From positions 1,922,001 through 1,986,000 of the forward strand of contig NZ_JYBP01000003.1 of NCBI RefSeq assembly GCF_000948285.1: a stretch of 64,000 nt of DNA, in the 5' to 3' direction. A model generated the notes under the pieces. That model worked only from the letters and a program-made list of their open reading frames with translations. It made no database searches and had not been told where the DNA came from. Below, in pieces: positions 1 to 10,720 of this stretch; the first letter of the stretch is position 1, and each line of letters starts with the position of its first letter. Source of the DNA: Geobacillus kaustophilus. GTDB lineage: Bacteria > Bacillota > Bacilli > Bacillales > Anoxybacillaceae. Position numbers and translations under genes: made by a program.

Positions 1-304
1 GCAAGACGGCGAGATGCTCAAGCACTTCATACATCGTCAGCTCCGGGTACATCATAAACTCTTGCGGCAAATAGCCGATCTCGTTCACCCGCTTCACCCT
101 CGTGCCGGTGCTGATCGGCTCGTCTCCGAGCGACACCCGTCCGGCATTGAACTCCAACAGTCCGGCCACAATGCGCATCAACGTCGTCTTGCCGGCGCCG
201 TTTGGCCCCAGCAAGCCGTACACGCCGGAGAGGGAGAGAGAGACATCGGATAAAATCGGCTTCTTTTTCACGATTTTCGTCAATCCTTCAATGACGACCG
301 CCAA
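1..304 (-). CDS. ABC transporter ATPase of module B (partial, C-terminus off the window)
   Basis: Reading from a TTG at 304 gives about 101 residues of an ABC ATPase with an intact Walker A (GPNGAGKTT, residues about 32-40) and a Q-loop (YLPQEF). An AGGAGG lies 9 nt before the TTG, and the start overlaps the end of the upstream permease gene by 17 nt, so translation is probably coupled. The sequence parallels the module A ATPase at 4807-5676 (shared LTKIVKKKPILSDVSL / VTKRIKKQLILSNVSL layout), making the two paralogues. Inference: it energises the 672-residue permease next to it. Walker B and signature lie beyond the window edge, so activity cannot be judged. Confidence 0.85.
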   Translation of the reverse strand, partial: MAVVIEGLTKIVKKKPILSDVSLSLSGVYGLLGPNGAGKTTLMRIVAGLLEFNAGRVSLGDEPISTGTRVKRVNEIGYLPQEFMMYPELTMYEVLEHLAVL

Positions 305-2306
305 CGCCGTTCACCTCCTGCATCATCTCAAAGATGCGGTCCCATGTCCAACCGTCGTCCATGTTCGCATACCATGTCCGCAAACATTGTTGTTTTTGGT
401 CGACATCCAGCGGCTGAAACGCTTGATAAATGGCTTCAATTTGCTTCTTGACGGATGACGGCTGCGACTCGAACCACTCGCTTTTGGAGCTCCAGTCGAT
501 CACCAAAAGGCCTTGTTTTTGCATCAGCCAGCGGGTGGCCAGCGAAATCCACTCGTTGTACATGATCCGCGATCCTTTCGGCGGTACGGAAAGCCGAAGT
601 ATTTTTTCGTAAAAATTTTGTTCCATAATATATTGATCGATCCCATATAAGTCATCTGTGTTATATACAAGATGATCGTTTGCGAGAAACGAGGACAGTC
701 CGAAACTAGAGAAGACAATCTTGTTCGGCAACGATGAAACCGCCGTTGATGCGATTTGTTGTACATGACGGAATGTTTTTTCCATCTGGCGGATGACCGT
801 CGGCGCCCGTTCCGCCATATGCGGCCAATCGGCCGGGTAGGTGATCTCATATCCTTGATCGACGAGTTGATGCCCTTGCCCTTTGATCAAGGTGACCGCT
901 TGCGCCTTCCCTTGGTAACCCTTTCCACGCTTTGGCACATTGCAAAACAGCACATCGCCGTCCACGTTTAAGGTAAAGGTGTACGTTTCATTCGGAAAGA
1001 ATTGATCGGTGAACGCCCCATCCCAAACTGTCATCCCCGCCACCCGATATTCATGAGTCCGATACATGTGCGAAGCCCTCCTTTTCGGATACCACGCCCG
1101 ATCCGCCAACAGGACGATGCGGCCGTTGGTGTACGGAATGAGCGCCGTATCGACGATCTCATAGGAAAAGGTGAGCGTCGAGGTGCGTTTCGGCAGCCAC
1201 ACGGTCACGAGATCGCCGTTTCTCGTAAACTTGACGGGCTGATGGTCCGCTTCAATCGAGTGGAGCGGATACAAATGGTACAGTTGAAACGTGGGCCGGT
1301 TTGTTTCCAACTGGGACAAGGCCACGCGCACGACCGCACGCGATCCATGCAAGGAAAGGTCATACGACTGGATACGGTAGCGCAAATCGGCTTTCGTCTC
1401 TTGTTTCATCTGGCGGTATTCCTCGAGTTCGGTCGTCTGATCGGCCCGAGTGAACGCCTTGGTGTTCGTTTGCAAGGAGTGGTAGGCGGTTAGGACGATC
1501 AGAAACGGGAAGACGAGAAATGCTTTCAAGACGGCGTTTCGCTCCTTTCTCGTCTGCGTAAAGCGGATCGACGACAACAACGCCAACCCGACAAGGGAAA
1601 GAAACCACGCGGCCCATTTCCATTCCCCGCCGCGGTCGACCTCAAACCCGATGTAGGAATCATACGCTCGTTGAATCGCGTGTTTTCCGATAAACAGCAG
1701 CGACGCCCAGTCGCGGGCATGAACAGTTTCGGACAGATCGATGAACAGCTCCGTCGTCATCGGTCCGGTCAGGATCCACACAAGCAAAATAGCGAAAAAA
1801 CTGACCTTTTTCGTTTCCAACAGCAGTGCGATGATGACGCCGTACAGGACGGTGAGCACGAGCGGTCCAAACTGATAGACGGCGAGAAACCGAAGCAGCG
1901 ACAAATACAGATCCGAAGGCTCCACCCCAACGAAGAGATACACGAGTGAAAAAACGCCGCAGCTCATCATCAGCATGATCCCTTGGCACAGCGCATGAAC
2001 CGCAAGCAAGGCGCTCATTTTCTCCAGCAGAATCCGGTAGCCGTCGGCGAACCATGACGAAACGCCGTAACGAAGTTCGTTGGAGTAGAGAAGGTAGAAC
2101 CACACGATGTAAAAGAGCGAAACGATTTGAACAAGCATGAACACTTCATGAGGGATATCCCCATAACTCTCCATATTGTACGGATCGGTAAAAAATAGTG
2201 TAAACCGTACGGCCAGCAAAAGAAAAAACGAGAAACTAGCACCAATGTATAACTTGCTTTTCAACAATCGTTTCCAATAAAAAACAAACAGCCATTTCCA
2301 CCTCAT
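288..2306 (-). CDS. Large ABC permease with extracellular domain, module B (672 aa)
   Basis: The first ~270 residues are hydrophobic with about six membrane segments, typical of ABC-2 type permeases. After a last segment (AFLVFPFLIVLTAY) comes a ~390-residue hydrophilic domain expected outside the membrane. It shares landmarks with the 683-aa permease at 5673-7724: GPMTTELF versus GPMNTQLF in the membrane part, then FTRNGDLVTV versus FTQQGDVITV, and LADRAWYP versus LPSDFSWVP in the ectodomain. That ectodomain layout recalls M1-aminopeptidase-like domains fused to ABC permeases, but no HExxH zinc motif is present, so no peptidase activity is claimed. It is followed directly by its ATPase. The element inserted at 2376-3859 separates it from the island promoter, so its expression may be altered. 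Confidence 0.8.
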   Translation of the reverse strand: MRWKWLFVFYWKRLLKSKLYIGASFSFFLLLAVRFTLFFTDPYNMESYGDIPHEVFMLVQIVSLFYIVWFYLLYSNELRYGVSSWFADGYRILLEKMSALLAVHALCQGIMLMMSCGVFSLVYLFVGVEPSDLYLSLLRFLAVYQFGPLVLTVLYGVIIALLLETKKVSFFAILLVWILTGPMTTELFIDLSETVHARDWASLLFIGKHAIQRAYDSYIGFEVDRGGEWKWAAWFLSLVGLALLSSIRFTQTRKERNAVLKAFLVFPFLIVLTAYHSLQTNTKAFTRADQTTELEEYRQMKQETKADLRYRIQSYDLSLHGSRAVVRVALSQLETNRPTFQLYHLYPLHSIEADHQPVKFTRNGDLVTVWLPKRTSTLTFSYEIVDTALIPYTNGRIVLLADRAWYPKRRASHMYRTHEYRVAGMTVWDGAFTDQFFPNETYTFTLNVDGDVLFCNVPKRGKGYQGKAQAVTLIKGQGHQLVDQGYEITYPADWPHMAERAPTVIRQMEKTFRHVQQIASTAVSSLPNKIVFSSFGLSSFLANDHLVYNTDDLYGIDQYIMEQNFYEKILRLSVPPKGSRIMYNEWISLATRWLMQKQGLLVIDWSSKSEWFESQPSSVKKQIEAIYQAFQPLDVDQKQQCLRTWYANMDDGWTWDRIFEMMQEVNGVGGRH

Positions 2307-2564: not shown

Positions 2565-3755
2565 TTAAGCAGCCTGACTGCCTGTAGTGTTCCCTGTACA
2601 CTCCAGAAATACACGCAAACGAAACCGTTCTAGATTTCGATAGCCATATGCCCGGCGTTTGATGTTTTTGATCTTGTGATTCGTCCCCTCAATTCGGGCA
2701 TTCGTATATGGGCACAAAAAGTAGGAAAGAATAGGCTCCTTCCACCTTTCAAGCGTGTTGGCTGCTTTCTGAAAAGAAGCAAAAGGGCTCTGTTTGGCTA
2801 ACTGAATCCATTCTTCCAAGCGTTCCTTTGCTTCATGATATCCATCGGTTCGGTAAAAATCCCGAAACAACTCTTTCAGATAATAAGCAATGGAAAGTGC
2901 CGGATACTCCTCCAAGATATCGTCTAATCGAAGCCGTTGGTCCTTACGAAGCTTTTCACAGCCTTTCAAGAGAAGATATCGAGCCTTTTTCAATGGAGAA
3001 AATTCCTTTCTTGCTTGATCCAAGGCTTGTGTCACTTTTTGAACCACATGGTACTTATCGATGACAATCGAAGCAGATGGAAACAGGGCGCGAACCGCCT
3101 TATGATAAGATTCCCACATGTCAAGAATCACCGTTTGGACCATTTCTTTCGACAGGATATTTTGGCTCAACAAGTTGATGGCGGAGTCACATTGGCGATC
3201 GGCATGCATTCCCATGACCGATCCGGCTCTGGCATCCATCAATACAGTTTCATACTGATGTCCCTTTTTTACAGCGATTTCATCTAAACTAAGCACCATT
3301 CCTTCTTGAGAAGATGCTTCTATCGCTGTTTGACGCTCTTTTGCTTTTTTCGATGCGATGGAGTAATAAATGCGTTCCAATGTTGTATATGGGATGCGGT
3401 GCTTTCGGCTAACCTCTTGAATGGTGGAGCCTTCGCAAAGTTCATACAAGTACTCACAAAATCGATTGGTGTAGTGTTGATGGGGTGGAATCGATTCCAA
3501 AGAGGCGGAAAACACTTGAGAACAATTCCAGCACCGATAGCGCTTTACCTTTATGAACAAGTACACCGGTTGATGGAAAATCGCCAAATCCCGTACTTTT
3601 CTTGTCCGTCTGTCGTGGACAGAGGAAGTGGCAAACCCACAATGAGGGCAACGTTCCTGTGTCTCTGTTTTCTCTACATGAATCGCATAACCATAGGAAA
3701 GAAGTTCTTGTTTAATCACTTTAAATTCTGGCAATCCTAGTGGTATAGAAAGCAC
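2565..3755 (-). CDS. ISL3-family transposase
   Basis: 396 residues. The N-terminus carries two zinc-binding Cys pairs (CPHCGF at about residue 37 and CWNCSQ at about 75) as in ISL3 transposases, then a helix-turn-helix region (STIQEVSRKHRIPYTTLERI). The DDE-type core follows: LDEIAVKKGH, VILDMWESYHKAV with the second Asp, VIDKYHVVQKV, and a C-terminal ARIEGTNHKIKNIKRRAYG block with the Glu. It starts with GTG behind AAGGAGG. Length and motif order are complete, so it should be active. The start codon lies inside a long stem described separately. Confidence 0.95.
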   Translation of the reverse strand: MLSIPLGLPEFKVIKQELLSYGYAIHVEKTETQERCPHCGFATSSVHDRRTRKVRDLAIFHQPVYLFIKVKRYRCWNCSQVFSASLESIPPHQHYTNRFCEYLYELCEGSTIQEVSRKHRIPYTTLERIYYSIASKKAKERQTAIEASSQEGMVLSLDEIAVKKGHQYETVLMDARAGSVMGMHADRQCDSAINLLSQNILSKEMVQTVILDMWESYHKAVRALFPSASIVIDKYHVVQKVTQALDQARKEFSPLKKARYLLLKGCEKLRKDQRLRLDDILEEYPALSIAYYLKELFRDFYRTDGYHEAKERLEEWIQLAKQSPFASFQKAANTLERWKEPILSYFLCPYTNARIEGTNHKIKNIKRRAYGYRNLERFRLRVFLECTGNTTGSQAA

Positions 3756-3910: not shown

Positions 3911-4126
3911 TTATTTGACCGTAATGGTCACGTATCCTCTTGAACCAACCGTTTGACCAACAATTTGGCCATAATATTTATCGCCTTCTTGTTGTGGAAA
4001 ATTGCGCGTTTCTTCTTGCCTAGGATTGAGCCAGTTGGTGGAGGCGACGACGCTGTCGGGCCACCAATTGATCAATTTGTAAGCATAGCCTCTTGTTTGG
4101 GTCGCGAAGCCGTTATTTGCGGCCAA
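3911..4126 (-). pseudogene. Remnant of a secreted small-protein gene (module B)
   Basis: Encodes about 71 residues homologous to the mature part of the secreted protein at 7844-8242. The shared core is RGYAYKLINWWPDSVVAS versus QGYAKKQINWWPDSTVAS, with alignable C-terminal strands ending GYVTITVK versus GEAKVTVN. No signal peptide can be found. The frame is closed by TGA at 4130-4132 two codons before the first possible start (TTG, 4126), there is no good ribosome site, and the upstream permease gene ends only 24 nt away. I infer deletion of the promoter-proximal half. A short cytoplasmic product from the TTG cannot be excluded. Confidence 0.7.
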
Positions 4127-4150: not shown

Positions 4151-4810
4151 TTATTGAGGTTTCCGATCTCCTTTGCGGATCCATACAATGGTGATACATG
4201 CTGCTAGAAAGATGGACAGCGTTAACATGATGAATTTGTTGATGAGCATCGGTTCCCAAACCGGCGGCTCGAACAAAAAGATATGCGGCCAGGGCATGAA
4301 CGTTCCTAATGTGGCCACTTCAAGCACCGTATAAATAAAAATGACTGTCAGTGCGATATGGGTGTTTTTTGTAAGAACAAGGGCGGCAGTGCTGAAAAAT
4401 AGGTAAAAGAACGTCAATAGAATGAAATGAATGAGATTCAAAAAAGACAAAGAAGAAACTCCGTATTTCCACATGAATGCCCCGCTTAGAGCGGCAACTC
4501 CTAATAAATGGATGGAAGAATAACGTACGACATCAATCCCAACCCATTTCCTATAGTAAGGGACAAGCGTTTCTTGCGCTCCATCTTCATACAGTTCACC
4601 GAATCGATAAATCAGGCACCATCCGGAAAACGGGATGAACAACCCTTGGATGACGATCACATCATCGTAAATGCTTGACGATTTCCGGGGAACAAGCAAA
4701 ATAAGCAACAGCGATAGGATGAACATCGCTGGTGGGATAAAAAAGGCTCCGCCCATTGTCTTGCGGTCAAACACGAATGCGGTTCGCATCCATTCGATGT
4801 AAGCTTTCAT
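4151..4810 (-). CDS. Small ABC-2 type membrane subunit, module A (219 aa)
   Basis: About six predicted membrane helices (for example FFIPPAMFILSLLLILLV, FILLTFFYLFFSTAALVL and FIMLTLSIFLAACITIVW) and no other domain. The ATG at 4810 overlaps the stop of the ATPase gene in an ATGA, with GAGGGG upstream, so the subunits are translationally coupled. It is likely a second permease of the transporter made with 4807-5676 and 5673-7724. No counterpart is visible in module B, whose equivalent position lies off the window. Confidence 0.75.
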   Translation of the reverse strand: MKAYIEWMRTAFVFDRKTMGGAFFIPPAMFILSLLLILLVPRKSSSIYDDVIVIQGLFIPFSGWCLIYRFGELYEDGAQETLVPYYRKWVGIDVVRYSSIHLLGVAALSGAFMWKYGVSSLSFLNLIHFILLTFFYLFFSTAALVLTKNTHIALTVIFIYTVLEVATLGTFMPWPHIFLFEPPVWEPMLINKFIMLTLSIFLAACITIVWIRKGDRKPQ

Positions 4811-5676
4811 CTTGGTTCCCCTCTTCGGACAACAGCCAAATAGCCATCGATCAATCGCGGTGCCACCGGTCTCCCCCCTGTTCCCCCATTTTTGGAAAAC
4901 ACCCGCGCGTGAATGCCATCCTCTTCTTCGAGAAGCTGCACCACTTCTCTCGTTGCGATCAAGTCATCCAATTCTTCGGGGCATATGCAATATTCCCACA
5001 CACAGCCTTCTGCGCGGGACTTCAGCTCAGACGGCGTGCCTTCAAACAACACTTGCCCTTGTTTCAAAACCCCAATTTTGGTGCACAAAAACTCAATGTC
5101 TTCCACAATGTGCGAAGAAATGACAATCGTATGCTCGGAACCAAGCTGCTTGAGCAGATGGCGAAAGCGGATTCGCTCTTCAATATCCAAGCCGGCAGTC
5201 GGCTCGTCAAACAGCAAGATGGACGGCTTTCGCGTCAATAAATGGGCAATTCCCACCCGCCGCCGCATGCCGCCGGACAGCTCGGACATTTTTTTCGTCT
5301 CATGGCCGTTCAAGTTCACTTTTTGAATCGCTTCGGCAACGGCCGCGTGCCGTTTGTGTTTGTCCATCATTCCTTGCAATAAAGCGAGATGGTCAAGCGT
5401 TTCTTCGACCGTAATGTTCGGATAGACCATGAAATCTTGCGGCAAATAACCGATCCGTTCATGAGCTTTCACATATTTTCCTTTGGTGCAGCTTTGTTTG
5501 CCGATCGCCACTTGCCCTTCATCCATGGGCGTCAAGCCGGCCAATATTTTCATCAATGTCGTCTTGCCGGCTCCGTTCGGCCCGACTAACCCGTAAATCC
5601 CTTCCATGCAAAGCGATACGTTCGATAAAATGAGTTGTTTTTTGATTCGTTTCGTGACGCTGGATACATGGATCAT
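4807..5676 (-). CDS. ABC transporter ATPase, module A
   Basis: 289 residues with all the catalytic motifs: Walker A GPNGAGKTT (about 31-39), Q-loop YLPQDF, signature LSGGM, Walker B LLFDEPTAGLD with the catalytic Glu, and switch His in SSHIVED. It belongs to the DrrA/CcmA-like export ATPases. The ATG at 5676 overlaps the upstream permease stop (ATGA) behind AGGAGGG. It is the functional reference against which the decayed ATPase at 8229-8855 can be aligned without gaps through the signature-Walker B segment. Substrate unknown; the neighbouring secreted protein is the obvious candidate. Confidence 0.92.
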   Translation of the reverse strand: MIHVSSVTKRIKKQLILSNVSLCMEGIYGLVGPNGAGKTTLMKILAGLTPMDEGQVAIGKQSCTKGKYVKAHERIGYLPQDFMVYPNITVEETLDHLALLQGMMDKHKRHAAVAEAIQKVNLNGHETKKMSELSGGMRRRVGIAHLLTRKPSILLFDEPTAGLDIEERIRFRHLLKQLGSEHTIVISSHIVEDIEFLCTKIGVLKQGQVLFEGTPSELKSRAEGCVWEYCICPEELDDLIATREVVQLLEEEDGIHARVFSKNGGTGGRPVAPRLIDGYLAVVRRGEPR

Positions 5677-7724
5677 GTCTGTCCCTCCTGAACGATGCGG
5701 ATAAGCTGTATCGCTTTCTCCCAGCTGTTATCTGCTCCTTCATTTATTTGTTTGTACCATAAAGCCAAAAATTTTTGTTTTTTCTCATCGGATAAGCGTT
5801 CATACTCCCCATACAGCTTCCTCAGCACTTCCTCTGTTTTCTTGTCAGGGGGATCCACTGACAAAGCCAAATCAAACGTCAAATCTCCTCCGGAATAGGG
5901 AAGGGCTAATTGTTGTTGGAACCATCTTGACAACAACGCTTGAAACACGTCTTTTTGCATTGATAAATGTGTTCCCCTCCAAAGAAGCCCTTCTGTGATG
6001 ATTTCCGGCAAATACATCAATGTTCCTTCTTGGGAGCGAAGGGAATATGGCGTATCAATTTGAAGAAGCAGGTGATCGCTGCTATATACACACCGTTGTT
6101 CACCATGGGGAGCGAGCAACACGATGTTTGTCGGCAACTTTGCCGCTTTTAAATCGAACATCTGCACGATATCATGGTGGATGCGCCGTACATGACGTTC
6201 GAAAATCGGCCAATCTTGCTTAAGATTCGGCCAGTCGGCAGGGTAAACGATCTGCCATGGCCCGATTTTTTCCTTCAAAAACATTCCTGCCACAGCTGTA
6301 ATGCCGCCGGATACAACTCCTTCGTACATTCCGTCGCTTCGGCGCGGCAAATTCGTATAAAATGGCGCCATTCCATAAAACGACAACGTATAGCGGATCG
6401 GATGGCTCGATTGCATTGATACAGGCACCGGACTGGAATGAACGTTCACAAAGGCAAACGGAGCATGATTGGCTTTTGTCGGCACCCAGCTGAAATCGCT
6501 CGGTAAAAACAAATAGTGCGGTGAAACGGGAATTTGCGCGGAATCGTTCAATTGATACTCAAACGTCCATTTGTCAGTCAAGCGATTGGATAACCGTTTA
6601 ACCGTGATGACATCCCCCTGTTGAGTAAAAGGAAGCTGGTTTCCAGTTTGATCGGTGATTCGCTTCAGAGCAAAATGATGATAAAGCACGAACGACAGCG
6701 TGTCGCCCCGAATTTGGCGCAAGGTCACTTTCACTTTCGCATGTACACCGTTTTTGGCCTCCAGCTGAATGTCGTATCGCTCAATCGAATAGTGCAATGT
6801 GCTTGGTTGGATGGTTGAATCATGAGTTTGGTAGTAAACGTTTTCTTGAGCCAAATCAGCGTAGCTGAACACCAGTTTGTTTCCAGTGAAAAGATGCGGA
6901 AACAACCAAGCATCACCCGCCAAAAGCAAAACAACACCCGTAATAATGGCCGCTTTCTCCTTTGTCGTGCGGGCCGTTTTCCAAAGAATAGCCCATACCG
7001 CCATCATCGACGATAGGATCCAAAACAATATTTTCATATACGTCGAAAGGCTGACATGGTACCCAATGACGTCACGAAATACATCGTCCATATTCAGCGG
7101 ACCGATGTAAAACAAACTACGGATGTCGGAAAAAGGGATTAGATGGAAATAACGGGAAAACAATTGTGTATTCATCGGGCCTATGGCCAGCCAAATGACC
7201 ATCATCCAGGCAAAGCTTAATCGATTTTTCCCAAACAATAGAGCATTGAAAATACCAAGAAAAAAGGCAAATACGAACGGCAATAGCCAATATACGGCAA
7301 TATACGATGCCGTTTCGGTATACAACGAAGAAAAGGGAAGACCCCATGTGCGGTAAAACTGCCATACAAGTACAACTTGCAGACCGGTGAAGAATGAAAG
7401 AAACAGCAAGTGATTCACGAACAAGGCGGCGATTTTCAACGCTGTGATGTGCAGTGAACCGGCAAACAAAAGATTGGCGCCAAATCGGTATTCATCAGAG
7501 AACAACTTATAAAAAAATACCATAAACAGTAGCATGGCTGCTTGGACGATTAACGTCATTTCCCCGACAAAGTTTCCATAATCCGTCTTGCCAAAGGAAT
7601 CGTACTGGCGAATGAGAAAGCGCATCATCAGCATGATGAACCAAAATGTGTATGTTCCCATATAGAGAATACTTTTTCCCATCTGTTTGGCGTAAAACCA
7701 TGATAGGCGAGTAAACAAAGTCAT
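5673..7724 (-). CDS. Large ABC permease with extracellular domain, module A (683 aa)
   Basis: An N-terminal half of about six membrane helices (residues about 15-275) is followed by a ~390-residue ectodomain. Landmarks shared with the module B protein and, more weakly, with the 622-aa protein are FTQQGDVITV and a Leu-rich strand ending in W-x-P (LPSDFSWVP). Known M1-like ABC ectodomains have a similar strand, but there is no HExxH, so the fold is an inference and an active site is absent. The ATG at 7724 has GGAG about 10 nt upstream. It is separated from the secreted-protein gene by a 13-bp hairpin and coupled to its ATPase by an ATGA overlap. A role in export of, sensing of, or protection against the secreted protein is plausible. 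Confidence 0.8.
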   Translation of the reverse strand: MTLFTRLSWFYAKQMGKSILYMGTYTFWFIMLMMRFLIRQYDSFGKTDYGNFVGEMTLIVQAAMLLFMVFFYKLFSDEYRFGANLLFAGSLHITALKIAALFVNHLLFLSFFTGLQVVLVWQFYRTWGLPFSSLYTETASYIAVYWLLPFVFAFFLGIFNALLFGKNRLSFAWMMVIWLAIGPMNTQLFSRYFHLIPFSDIRSLFYIGPLNMDDVFRDVIGYHVSLSTYMKILFWILSSMMAVWAILWKTARTTKEKAAIITGVVLLLAGDAWLFPHLFTGNKLVFSYADLAQENVYYQTHDSTIQPSTLHYSIERYDIQLEAKNGVHAKVKVTLRQIRGDTLSFVLYHHFALKRITDQTGNQLPFTQQGDVITVKRLSNRLTDKWTFEYQLNDSAQIPVSPHYLFLPSDFSWVPTKANHAPFAFVNVHSSPVPVSMQSSHPIRYTLSFYGMAPFYTNLPRRSDGMYEGVVSGGITAVAGMFLKEKIGPWQIVYPADWPNLKQDWPIFERHVRRIHHDIVQMFDLKAAKLPTNIVLLAPHGEQRCVYSSDHLLLQIDTPYSLRSQEGTLMYLPEIITEGLLWRGTHLSMQKDVFQALLSRWFQQQLALPYSGGDLTFDLALSVDPPDKKTEEVLRKLYGEYERLSDEKKQKFLALWYKQINEGADNSWEKAIQLIRIVQEGQT

Positions 7725-7843: not shown

Positions 7844-8242
7844 TTAATTCACGGTCACTTTTGCTTCGCCATAAATAGATGTCGCATTGGCCTGTGTGTA
7901 TGCTTCAGCATAGTAGAAAGACCCGTTTTCAGCTGTGAAAGATTTTTTTATTGTTTGTGATGGATAGGCTATTGCCGAAGCAACTGTTGAATCAGGCCAC
8001 CAGTTAATTTGTTTTTTGGCATACCCTTGTACATAAAATGCTGGACCTGATGAAGAGACGACCAATGTTCCAGAGGCCCCAGTAGCTTTCACTGGTGTTC
8101 CTGTGGCAGAACTAGCCCCCGGTGAAATATGCGCAATGGAAGTGCCGGAGGCATAAACAGATCCAGCAATGCTGAGAACCAACACTAAAATGAATAGTGG
8201 TAGCCCCTTAGCTTTCGTTTTACGTGCCTTATTGACAACCAT
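7844..8242 (-). CDS. Secreted small protein, module A (132 aa precursor)
   Basis: Start chosen at ATG 8242: AAAGGAGG lies 8 nt upstream, whereas the GTG three codons earlier overlaps that site. A basic N-terminus (KARKTKAK), a hydrophobic core (LPLFILVLVLSIAG) and SVYA at residue 31 form a signal peptide, leaving a mature chain of about 101 residues. Its first ~30 residues are Ser/Gly/Thr/Ala rich, followed by an aromatic domain with GYAKKQINWWPDSTVAS and a beta-rich end. There are no cysteines and no recognisable family. The gene overlaps the decayed ATPase gene upstream, and a paralogous remnant is at 3911-4126. It could be a bacteriocin-like or surface-acting protein; that is context inference only. 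Confidence 0.8.
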   Translation of the reverse strand: MVVNKARKTKAKGLPLFILVLVLSIAGSVYASGTSIAHISPGASSATGTPVKATGASGTLVVSSSGPAFYVQGYAKKQINWWPDSTVASAIAYPSQTIKKSFTAENGSFYYAEAYTQANATSIYGEAKVTVN

Positions 8243-8855
8243 CCTTCTCACCTCCTTTTAAGGGTAGTAATTTGGTAGAATCAAGTTGATAAATGGGTTT
8301 AGGAAGCATTGTGAATATTTTTTCTATTCGATTTGTAAAGATGAGATAATGTGCATTCGAAAAATCATCTTTTAAGAAATAATAAAACTGTTCTAAGTCT
8401 TCGAAGTCAAAGTGTTTCGTCGGCTGATCGAAAATGAATACTGTGCGATTTAGCGACTGTCCAAGAGAAACAAGATAAATCAGCCGTTGAAACATCGTCA
8501 ATGAATCGATGGATGCATGGGAAGGGAGGCGATATTTTTTCCATAGTGCCGATTGCTGAAAAGGACGATTCAGCCATATCGAAATATCTTGCAAACGATA
8601 GTTTCTCCACAGTTGGTGGTAGTTCTCAGGAATCACGAAAAATACGGTTTTATTCGGTTTTCCTTTTGCTGCCTGTTCATTGAAATGGATTTCCCCTTCA
8701 TCGATAGGATGAAAGCCGGCAAGCGCTTTGGCGACAATATCTGTGCGAATGTGATTTTTGGCTAGAATGATGGATTGGGAAGGAAGATTGACGGAACAAT
8801 GATGCAAAATAAGTTGGCGATGGTGCTTGAGGGTCACATTTTTTAATTCCATCAT
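8229..8855 (-). CDS. Degenerate ABC ATPase (pseudo-ATPase, 208 aa)
   Basis: Start at ATG 8855, in an ATGATG that overlaps the upstream stop, behind GGAAGGAG. The fold aligns with the module A ATPase, but each catalytic element is replaced. Walker A GPNGAGKTT becomes AKNHIRTDI (residues 32-40, P-loop Lys to Thr38). The signature LSGG becomes LTMF (119-122). The Walker B FDE becomes FDQ (143-144), so the catalytic Glu is Gln. The switch His becomes Arg176. Flanking residues (ALAG, FDxPT) are preserved, and the frame is open and coupled on both sides. This is not a randomly decaying gene; a structural or regulatory role with the 622-aa permease is likely, and ATP hydrolysis is unlikely. Confidence 0.85.
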   Translation of the reverse strand: MMELKNVTLKHHRQLILHHCSVNLPSQSIILAKNHIRTDIVAKALAGFHPIDEGEIHFNEQAAKGKPNKTVFFVIPENYHQLWRNYRLQDISIWLNRPFQQSALWKKYRLPSHASIDSLTMFQRLIYLVSLGQSLNRTVFIFDQPTKHFDFEDLEQFYYFLKDDFSNAHYLIFTNRIEKIFTMLPKPIYQLDSTKLLPLKGGEKDGCQ

Positions 8856-10720
8856 TTGTCTCCTTCCCCCCTTTCTTGCGCTAGTTGAATCAATATGTTT
8901 TCTTTTTCTTTTATGGATAGTGCCATGTAGTGCTCCCACGTTGTTGAGTCGATGGAGGATTTTTCCGCTATCCTGTTTCCATATCCGATAGATGGAATAT
9001 GTAGTTTTTCCATTAAATACAAGCCGACAAAGAGACTGATCTGTTCGTTTTCGAACAATCGGTACGGGATGGAAAACGCAGCCAACTCCTGAATATGTTT
9101 GGTTGCCGGAGTGCCATTGACGTCCAAGAACGGATCAACATAAAACGTGTAGTTTCCGTCAGCCACCGTGCTGTCGTACAGCGAAAGGTTTGTGGTGTTG
9201 ATGCTTTTTGGGATGATTGAGACGCTCTTGACTTCTTTTGTGCAATAATCTGTATTTGCAAGATTCGGAAACAAGTGGCATAGCTCATTGCGGATGGAAA
9301 CGAGTTGATGCTTCAATTCCATATAATTTCTTGTTGTAGTGAGAAATGGTTTATAAACAAGGAAACGAGTATGTTGCACTTGAATTTGTTTGTAAGGACC
9401 ATTGATCACGGAGAGACAAGGGAGATGGTCCCCATGCCAACGGTACTTTTCCTTTCCGACAATCATGTTGACTCGTGTACATGTTTTCGTTTCCACATTG
9501 GAATGAAGCGTTCCGGATGAGTCGATATCGTAAAGCGTTGAATCCATGGACTGCGGATACCAGTTGGCTTCAAATGGCAACAACGTGACGCCCGATGTTA
9601 ACGGATAAAAGGTTGAGCCGAACGTATGCCGATAATAGATCGTCATGGATGGGGCACCGTTGGTCTGCACCTGAACAACGTTTCCTTGTTGTTGAAAGGG
9701 GAAACGCTTCCCTCCGCCTTGGATGTGATCGATTTGAAATTGCTCGTTGATCGAAAAACGAACGGTGTGTTCTTTCGGATGCAGAGAGAGTGTGGCTTTG
9801 ATCGGATACGTGGATTTCGGATTCACCTCGATCTCCTTGATTTTCCAATATCCATGCAACGGGATGTTCTTGGGCTGAGCCTGATGTTTGATTTGTTGAT
9901 AGAGTTTGACGTCGTTTGCCAACAGAATGTCATCCAACTGGAATTTTGATTGTGCATGTTGAAGGAAAAATGTTACGAAAATAACGAGAGTCACACTAGC
10001 CGCAAGCCCCGCGAAGGATCGCCGCATGCTTCGAAAAACGCCATAAACGGCGATGGAAGAAAGAATATACGCCAATTTGATCAGCACGCGTTCTTTTTGG
10101 AAGGTTAGGCTGAATAACGGGTCAATGTAAGGCCAACGATGGTTTCCCCACAAGGAGAAGGATGGATTGCGATATTCCAAAGAAAACAGCACGATGATCC
10201 ACAAAACAAACACACCAACGAGCAACATCGCTTTTTTCGAAGAATGATAGGCGTAAACAGCGCCTGTGGACAATCCGATCATCCACACCCATAGAAATGG
10301 TAGAAGAAAATGAATCAAATACAATGGAAACAGAAAAGTGAAAAGATCCCAACCCGCTGAATAGTTGATCACCACCGCACCGGCGATGATCCCGGCCAAG
10401 GCCAGTTGCCAAGCGAAAAAACAAATAAATGCGATCAAAGCTTGGCAGAAGACGATCTTTTGCGGGTTTGGCATGATGTCATTCATCGCGATCCAGTGAA
10501 TTGGAGTCGAAGTGAACAACGAAACATGCAAGCGGAAGCTGAAGAGCAGCCAGACGGCCATTCCAATCGGAACCAAGTATTTCGTATATAAGATCCACTC
10601 GGCTGGATTGATGGTATGGGGATTGAGGCAAACAAACATCAAAACCCCAGAAAATACGAATATGAAACTAGCTTCTGCTTTTAAGCGGGACGCCATTCTT
10701 GAAATGAACACCCATTTCAT
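8852..10720 (-). CDS. Large membrane protein related to the module permeases (622 aa)
   Basis: First gene of the island operon. About seven hydrophobic segments occupy residues ~15-265, followed by a ~355-residue hydrophilic domain carrying the same landmarks as the other two large permeases (FPFQQQGNVVQV and LLPFEANWYP). Four cysteines of the outer domain (KTCTR, LPCLS, ELCHL, DYCTK) could form disulfides, unlike the paralogues. There is no HExxH. It starts at ATG 10720 after AGAGAGGG and ends in an ATGA overlap with the pseudo-ATPase gene. The pairing with a dead ATPase suggests a non-transporting role such as sensing or immunity. Base composition looks AT-richer than ileS next door. Confidence 0.75.
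   Translation of the reverse strand: MKWVFISRMASRLKAEASFIFVFSGVLMFVCLNPHTINPAEWILYTKYLVPIGMAVWLLFSFRLHVSLFTSTPIHWIAMNDIMPNPQKIVFCQALIAFICFFAWQLALAGIIAGAVVINYSAGWDLFTFLFPLYLIHFLLPFLWVWMIGLSTGAVYAYHSSKKAMLLVGVFVLWIIVLFSLEYRNPSFSLWGNHRWPYIDPLFSLTFQKERVLIKLAYILSSIAVYGVFRSMRRSFAGLAASVTLVIFVTFFLQHAQSKFQLDDILLANDVKLYQQIKHQAQPKNIPLHGYWKIKEIEVNPKSTYPIKATLSLHPKEHTVRFSINEQFQIDHIQGGGKRFPFQQQGNVVQVQTNGAPSMTIYYRHTFGSTFYPLTSGVTLLPFEANWYPQSMDSTLYDIDSSGTLHSNVETKTCTRVNMIVGKEKYRWHGDHLPCLSVINGPYKQIQVQHTRFLVYKPFLTTTRNYMELKHQLVSIRNELCHLFPNLANTDYCTKEVKSVSIIPKSINTTNLSLYDSTVADGNYTFYVDPFLDVNGTPATKHIQELAAFSIPYRLFENEQISLFVGLYLMEKLHIPSIGYGNRIAEKSSIDSTTWEHYMALSIKEKENILIQLAQERGEGDK

Follow-up and report, generated by a model that had tools for sequence, protein, structure and literature searches.

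The window analysed here, a stretch of 64,000 nucleotides from Geobacillus kaustophilus, contains at its beginning a cluster of ABC transporter and peptide genes, all on the minus strand. The gene under study, psATP (8229..8855), encodes a 208 aa homologue of ABC nucleotide-binding domains (NBDs) in which all catalytic motifs are replaced. Upstream of it lies permB (8852..10720), a 622 aa permease having six hydropathy peaks in its first ~255 residues and a C-terminal part of ~365 residues. Downstream lies pepB (7844..8251), encoding a 135 aa peptide with an N-terminal hydrophobic (signal-like) segment and a family motif around WWPDS. Active module A continues with the large permease permA (5673..7724; 683 aa), the canonical ABC ATPase ATPA (4807..5676; 289 aa; GPNGAGKTT, LSGGM, LFDEPTAGLD, VISSH) and the small permease permA219 (4151..4810; 219 aa). 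It is followed by the remnant of a second peptide gene (3911..4126; C-terminal ~70 residues, no signal segment), by an insertion sequence inside the cluster with a 396 aa transposase (2565..3755), presumably ISL3-like, and by active module C, represented by the large permease permC (672 aa; 288..2306) and the 5' part of the canonical ABC ATPase ATPC (1..304), which runs beyond the window and is complete in L020.

The initial annotation described psATP as coupled to both neighbours, and this is borne out: the stop codon of permB and the start codon of psATP share the ATGA at 8852-8855, and the start of the peptide frame, GTG 8251 or ATG 8242, falls inside the last psATP codons, as does the likely ribosome-binding site of the peptide. 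Such an arrangement speaks for a reading in which the psATP frame matters mainly for translational coupling, handing ribosomes over from permB to the start of the peptide frame. Coupling, however, requires neither amino-acid conservation over 208 codons nor an ABC fold, and this is the least probable of the explanations considered here.

The psATP frame extends from ATG at 8855 to a stop ending at 8229 and has no internal stops. When aligned with the active ATPase ATPA at 4807-5676, which served as the motif reference, it has AKNHIRTDI for GPNGAGKTT in Walker A (Lys to Thr38), LTMF for LSGG in the signature (residues 119-122), FDQP for FDEP in Walker B (Glu to Gln144) and TNR for SSH in the switch (His to Arg176). 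The Q-loop is changed as well, from LPQD to IPEN (Gln to Glu), and the D-loop Asp150 is retained. All four residues or motifs expected of a catalytic ATPase (Walker A Lys, LSGG, Walker B Glu and switch His) are thus missing from an open frame, as was first noted from the DNA. The ABC NBD fold nevertheless extends over the whole chain. The comparison with ATPA (hhalign) gives a probability of 97.8 and E 1.2e-12 over 177 columns, and a PDB profile search finds Uup as the best match (E 4.1e-7). Homology of psATP to ABC ATPases is significant and beyond chance, although no Pfam family matches it up to E 1.

In the same family, the psATP search matched 6 of 41 genomes at E 1e-5 or better; five of the six have a full-length frame, and G. 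icigianus has a remnant of 23-26 aa. Full-length carriers in this family include G. zalihae (two loci), G. proteiniphilus, G. thermocatenulatus and Anoxybacillus mongoliensis. Profile searches with permB at E 1e-8 matched 15 of 397 genomes in the order, 8 of 261 in a second family and 6 of 398 in the class; the three counts have genomes in common, and among the weaker matches several are active-module large permeases. Full-length psATP frames were found at 12 loci in 11 genomes of seven genera and four GTDB families (G000, which is this genome, G003, G008, G013 twice, G019, G112, G090, G610, G922, G808, and G848). An in-frame start is present at 11 of the 12, because the ATG of the open G808 frame is out of frame and no in-frame start was found there.

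Gene order is conserved, with permB, psATP and peptide following each other at all 12 loci, although in G003 the peptide leaves the contig after 18 residues and its remainder stands at the end of another contig. The simple form of the cluster, permB - psATP - peptide - large permease - canonical ATPase - small permease, is seen in Anoxybacillus, G112, G090 (with two peptide copies), G610, G922, and G808; G848 has the same gene order with another peptide type. The window differs from the simple form in having an extra active module (pepB, permA, ATPA, permA219) between psATP and the truncated second peptide gene, followed by the insertion sequence, which separates this gene from permC. The second peptide gene is reduced to its C-terminal half, an arrangement that recurs in L021, L024, L025, and L026; perhaps it was cut when the pepB-permA-ATPA-permA219 module inserted. 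The psATP genes at L022 (10172-10771) and L025 (13784-14383), which stand beside the other peptide type, share their first ~155 residues with the window copy and differ in the last part. Comparison of these copies with that of the window suggests that modules are exchanged by recombination within psATP.

The loss of motifs is common to the family. An orthologue in another genus, at 62% identity, lacks the same motifs, and so do orthologues in three other GTDB families, except for the G848 copy, which keeps two of the four. The switch His is Arg and LSGG is missing in all 12 copies, the Walker A Lys is missing in 11, and the Walker B Glu is replaced in 11 (by Gln in nine, His in one, and Asn in one). 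All four are therefore absent from 11 of 12 frames, that of the window included. In the exceptional G848 copy (L090), GRNNIGKT and YDEP are intact, the signature is LNQF and Arg stands for the switch His. In a tree of 37 proteins, 11 of them psATP, the psATP sequences form one clade (100/99) separate from the active ATPases, within which G848 branches first and the other ten are grouped (100/98); L021 was left out of this tree, and several long branches call for caution in reading it. The motifs had initially been taken to be lost simultaneously, but the G848 copy, which keeps Walker A and the Walker B Glu, makes the loss stepwise. The simplest order that this suggests is loss of LSGG and the switch His first and of Walker A and the Glu later. 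Because of the retained Walker A and Walker B Glu, the G848 protein could still bind ATP.

In most psATP copies a conserved N-x-I-x-T-[DE]-I stands where the P-loop would be, with Asn34 in 12 of 12 copies and Thr38, an acidic residue at 39 and Ile40 in 10 of 12 each. This conservation could mean that psATP has gained another, ligand-related activity through the new loop. The same loop may merely cap a helix, and we consider a new activity improbable.

The permB-psATP-peptide system is patchy and has been lost repeatedly, and psATP is dispensable in some strains. Seven loci have permB without a working psATP (L019, the first copy in L025, L026, L064, L067, L068, and L117). The canonical ATPase is kept at all seven, and the peptide gene is damaged or missing at five, being kept at L019 and L064. 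This joint loss is suggestive and does not represent independent events, because a single deletion removes neighbours together. Retention of the transporter with loss of the peptide is the pattern that would be expected of non-producers retaining immunity. L019 (G000 C3:612000-631000) is a second copy of the cluster in this genome, 99.5-99.9% identical from permB to the insertion sequence, in which psATP is interrupted by an insertion sequence with a 490 aa transposase, which we take to be IS66-like. This second copy is adjoined by a transposase 99% identical to the 396 aa transposase of the window. At L021 and L022, psATP is intact and permB is frameshifted or interrupted, respectively. G196 has a permB-like gene, truncated at the contig edge, with the peptide gene immediately after it; psATP was found neither between the two nor elsewhere in the assembly. 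A search of 14 genomes in which no psATP locus is intact gave matches at E 1e-6 in ten (best 8.1e-11, 42.7 bits); on reading, the matches at new loci of two of these, G928 and G196, turned out to have Walker A intact. Four clusters, L065, L119, L122 and L082, consist of active modules only: no peptide, permB or psATP was found nearby by tblastn at E 1e-6, the permB matches there falling on the active permease itself.

The insertions, deletions and remnants in some strains, and the missing in-frame start in G808, are what would be seen if psATP were a slowly decaying pseudogene that is still open by chance. Some within-genus comparisons point the same way, with dN/dS (ω) of 0.28 for G000-G013a (2 lnL 4.0), 0.58 for G000-G013b (2.4), and 0.49 for G000-G008 (4.9). 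The remaining pairs speak against decay. Between Geobacillus and Anoxybacillus (G000-G019), psATP has dN 0.238, dS 1.74, and ω 0.137, with 2 lnL of 80.9 against ω=1; further cross-genus pairs give ω 0.151 (G112-G610; 2 lnL 58.8) and 0.071 (G000-G610; 2 lnL 107.6, dS saturated), and G000-G003 gives 0.160 (2 lnL 19.5). G808 and G848 were not part of this set. Since ω in the G000-G019 pair is 0.151 for permB, 0.135 for permC and 0.055 for the active ATPC, the constraint on psATP is about that on its permease and weaker than that on an active ATPase. The altered motif columns are over-conserved (mean 0.856 against 0.712 overall, a value reached by 1 of 5000 random block placements), as calculated from nine of the twelve rows, leaving out the near-duplicate L021 and the divergent L089 and L090. 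In simulations of 2000 runs each, a neutral frame of 208 codons was still open in 4.6% at 0.127 substitutions per site and in none at 1.0. Together with replacement motifs common to four families, these results lead us to reject the pseudogene as an explanation, leaving it a very small probability, below that of the new-loop activity. The selection proposed for the motif-less protein in the initial annotation thus holds, given ω of 0.137 and the absence of the same motifs from orthologues of four GTDB families. Intact motifs combined with neutral drift, which would speak against it, were not found in related strains, all five Geobacillus frames read being degenerate. The annotation had also given psATP a non-hydrolysing role; of this, selection is established, and lack of hydrolysis is probable from the motifs.

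The partner of psATP is a distant relative of the active permeases. permB and permC of L028 are weak homologues (22.6% identity, E 3.7e-8), which gives the permB-psATP pair the look of a degenerate relative of the active one. The predicted model of permB is poor (pLDDT 48.2, pTM 0.30). For 20 large permeases, Pfam gives one ABC2_membrane_4 match at E 1.1e-4 and otherwise chance-level hits, and the best PDB profile match is a designed repeat at E 0.059. An M1-peptidase-like C-terminal domain was considered for these proteins and rejected, HExxH being absent from permA, permB and permC.

The peptide family aligns in 10 sequences with 13 invariant columns, and the window member has a hydrophobic N-terminal segment. 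No NCBIfam family matches the window peptide up to E 1 or two of its relatives up to E 10, and no NCBIfam bacteriocin model matches any of these three scanned members. Pfam gives for the window peptide only DUF7503 (E 0.05, below its cut-off), and a PDB profile search with the peptide gives nothing below E 0.36.

Regulatory genes adjoin some of the clusters. Those of G610 and G928 lie next to genes for a polyprenyl synthetase, a histidine kinase and a LuxR-type response regulator; a response regulator with the same domains adjoins those of G848 and G922. ComQ/ComP/ComA-like sets, a label that refers to domain make-up only, stand directly beside the peptide clusters at L081 (2099-6232) and L117 (10507-14093). 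Density-dependent control of the cluster would fit a bacteriocin.

A plasmid or phage origin of psATP was considered and rejected. In plasmids, tblastn found only two Listeria records at 21.5%, and the one read encodes, according to its annotation, an ABC transporter ATP-binding protein, with unrelated genes as neighbours. No match was found for psATP in viral contigs, for permB or the Anoxybacillus peptide in plasmids, or for pepB in phages. permC matched 12 plasmid records, all below 60% identity, and five were read. Plasmids of Geobacillus, Parageobacillus and Halobacillus (L130 5215-8660, L131 5200-8566, L132 5476-8855) have a gene for a peptide-like product of 123-135 aa, then genes for a large permease of related type and for an ABC ATPase whose Walker A is intact, and no second ATPase gene is annotated between them. 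By their gene content they look like further bacteriocin-like systems. Only the L131 peptide-like gene looks related to the peptide family (hhalign probability 68.5), those of L130 and L132 giving 3.1 and 0.8.

Taken together, psATP is probably a conserved, non-hydrolysing NBD subunit that works with permB, the pair acting as an accessory half-transporter of peptide clusters. The pair would be related to the family of large permease - ATPase - small permease modules and would be attached to clusters making a small secreted peptide. This peptide may be a Sec-secreted bacteriocin-like protein, and the canonical ABC transporter of the cluster may protect the cell, non-producers keeping the transporter alone; it is gene organisation that points to these bacteriocin and immunity roles. 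psATP would dock on the cytosolic side of permB and, in producing cells, hold or gate it without an ATP cycle. The selection on psATP in several bacterial families, and its clustering with a large membrane protein and a secreted bacteriocin-like peptide, suggest that this NBD has taken on a role other than that of a motor.

As a rule, nucleotides are still bound at degenerate ABC sites, and what such sites are for is under debate (for TM287/288, see PMC5216877). A rival possibility is that psATP pairs with ATPA or ATPC as the degenerate partner in an asymmetric NBD heterodimer, of the kind seen in TM287/288 and BmrCD, and modulates an ATP-driven cycle. A complete canonical ATPase at 11 of the 12 psATP loci (in G003 on a second contig; at L022 it runs off the contig end), the invariance of Asp150 in 12 of 12 copies and the possible ATP binding of the G848 copy fit such a mixed dimer, for which the accessible part of the TM287/288 study provides a precedent (PMC5216877). 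These exporters resemble the present system in having a catalytically replaced NBD beside an active one, and the degenerate site of TM287/288 is described there as helping to keep the NBDs together (PMC5216877). TM287/288 has, however, one consensus site according to the same source (PMC5216877), whereas psATP is a separate subunit in which a single chain lacks Walker A, LSGG, Glu and His, so that a psATP:ATPA dimer would have a defect in each of its two composite sites; no complete composite site across two NBDs is found with its canonical partners. The active module moreover occurs alone in the four active-only clusters. Because of the defective sites, an ATP-blind, structural NBD for permB is ranked first and the silent partner in a mixed dimer second, both at modest odds, and we regard the mixed dimer as unlikely. 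In its full form the preferred reading is tentative: permB and psATP may form a symmetric, ATP-independent complex of ATP-blind NBDs and an ABC-2-like permease, handling or sensing the bacteriocin-like peptide in producers beside an ATP-driven immunity transporter of conventional type from the same family, with the G848 protein as an intermediate that possibly binds ATP.

The psATP family thus presents an NBD that is stripped of all motifs and yet conserved. An intermediate that has survived hints at the sequence in which the motifs were lost, and the family allows a test of how an NBD serves its permease when blind to ATP. The cluster itself is an uncharacterised bacteriocin-like locus in thermophilic and other Bacilli. 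The family was not found described in the open-licence PubMed Central literature, a scope outside which most subscription papers fall, and the accessible part of a Geobacillus bacteriocin screen does not mention the cluster (PMC6160750).

Two known types of systems resemble the cluster as a whole. LanFEG transporters consist of one ATPase and two permeases, and the active modules are alike in having this composition beside a secreted peptide gene. They differ from LanFEG in the size of their large permeases (about 650-690 aa), whose C-terminal part is big, and ATPA scores 138.9 bits against TIGR03740 (LanFEG-type), below the cut-off of 309.75. Lactococcin 972-like loci (lcn972-orf2-orf3; scbABC) combine a structural gene with a pair of genes whose products are presumed to form an ABC transporter for immunity, experimental proof of these roles being said to be lacking, and some pneumococcal strains without functional peptide still have the immunity genes, as given in the accessible parts of the two sources (PMC4055356, PMC11796350). 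The psATP clusters differ from these loci by the curated models: the peptide matches no curated bacteriocin family, and ATPA reaches 120.6 bits against NCBIfam L_ocin_972_ABC (cut-off 254.85). The gene order described in the accessible parts of these sources, peptide followed by large membrane protein and ABC ATPase, is found in the psATP clusters (PMC4055356, PMC11796350). They are also alike in the signal on the small peptide, in the presumed ABC immunity, in quorum-type regulators at some loci and in strains that bear the transporter genes without the peptide. Compared with lactococcin 972-like loci, the psATP cluster has a third gene, for a small permease, and the extra permB-psATP pair.
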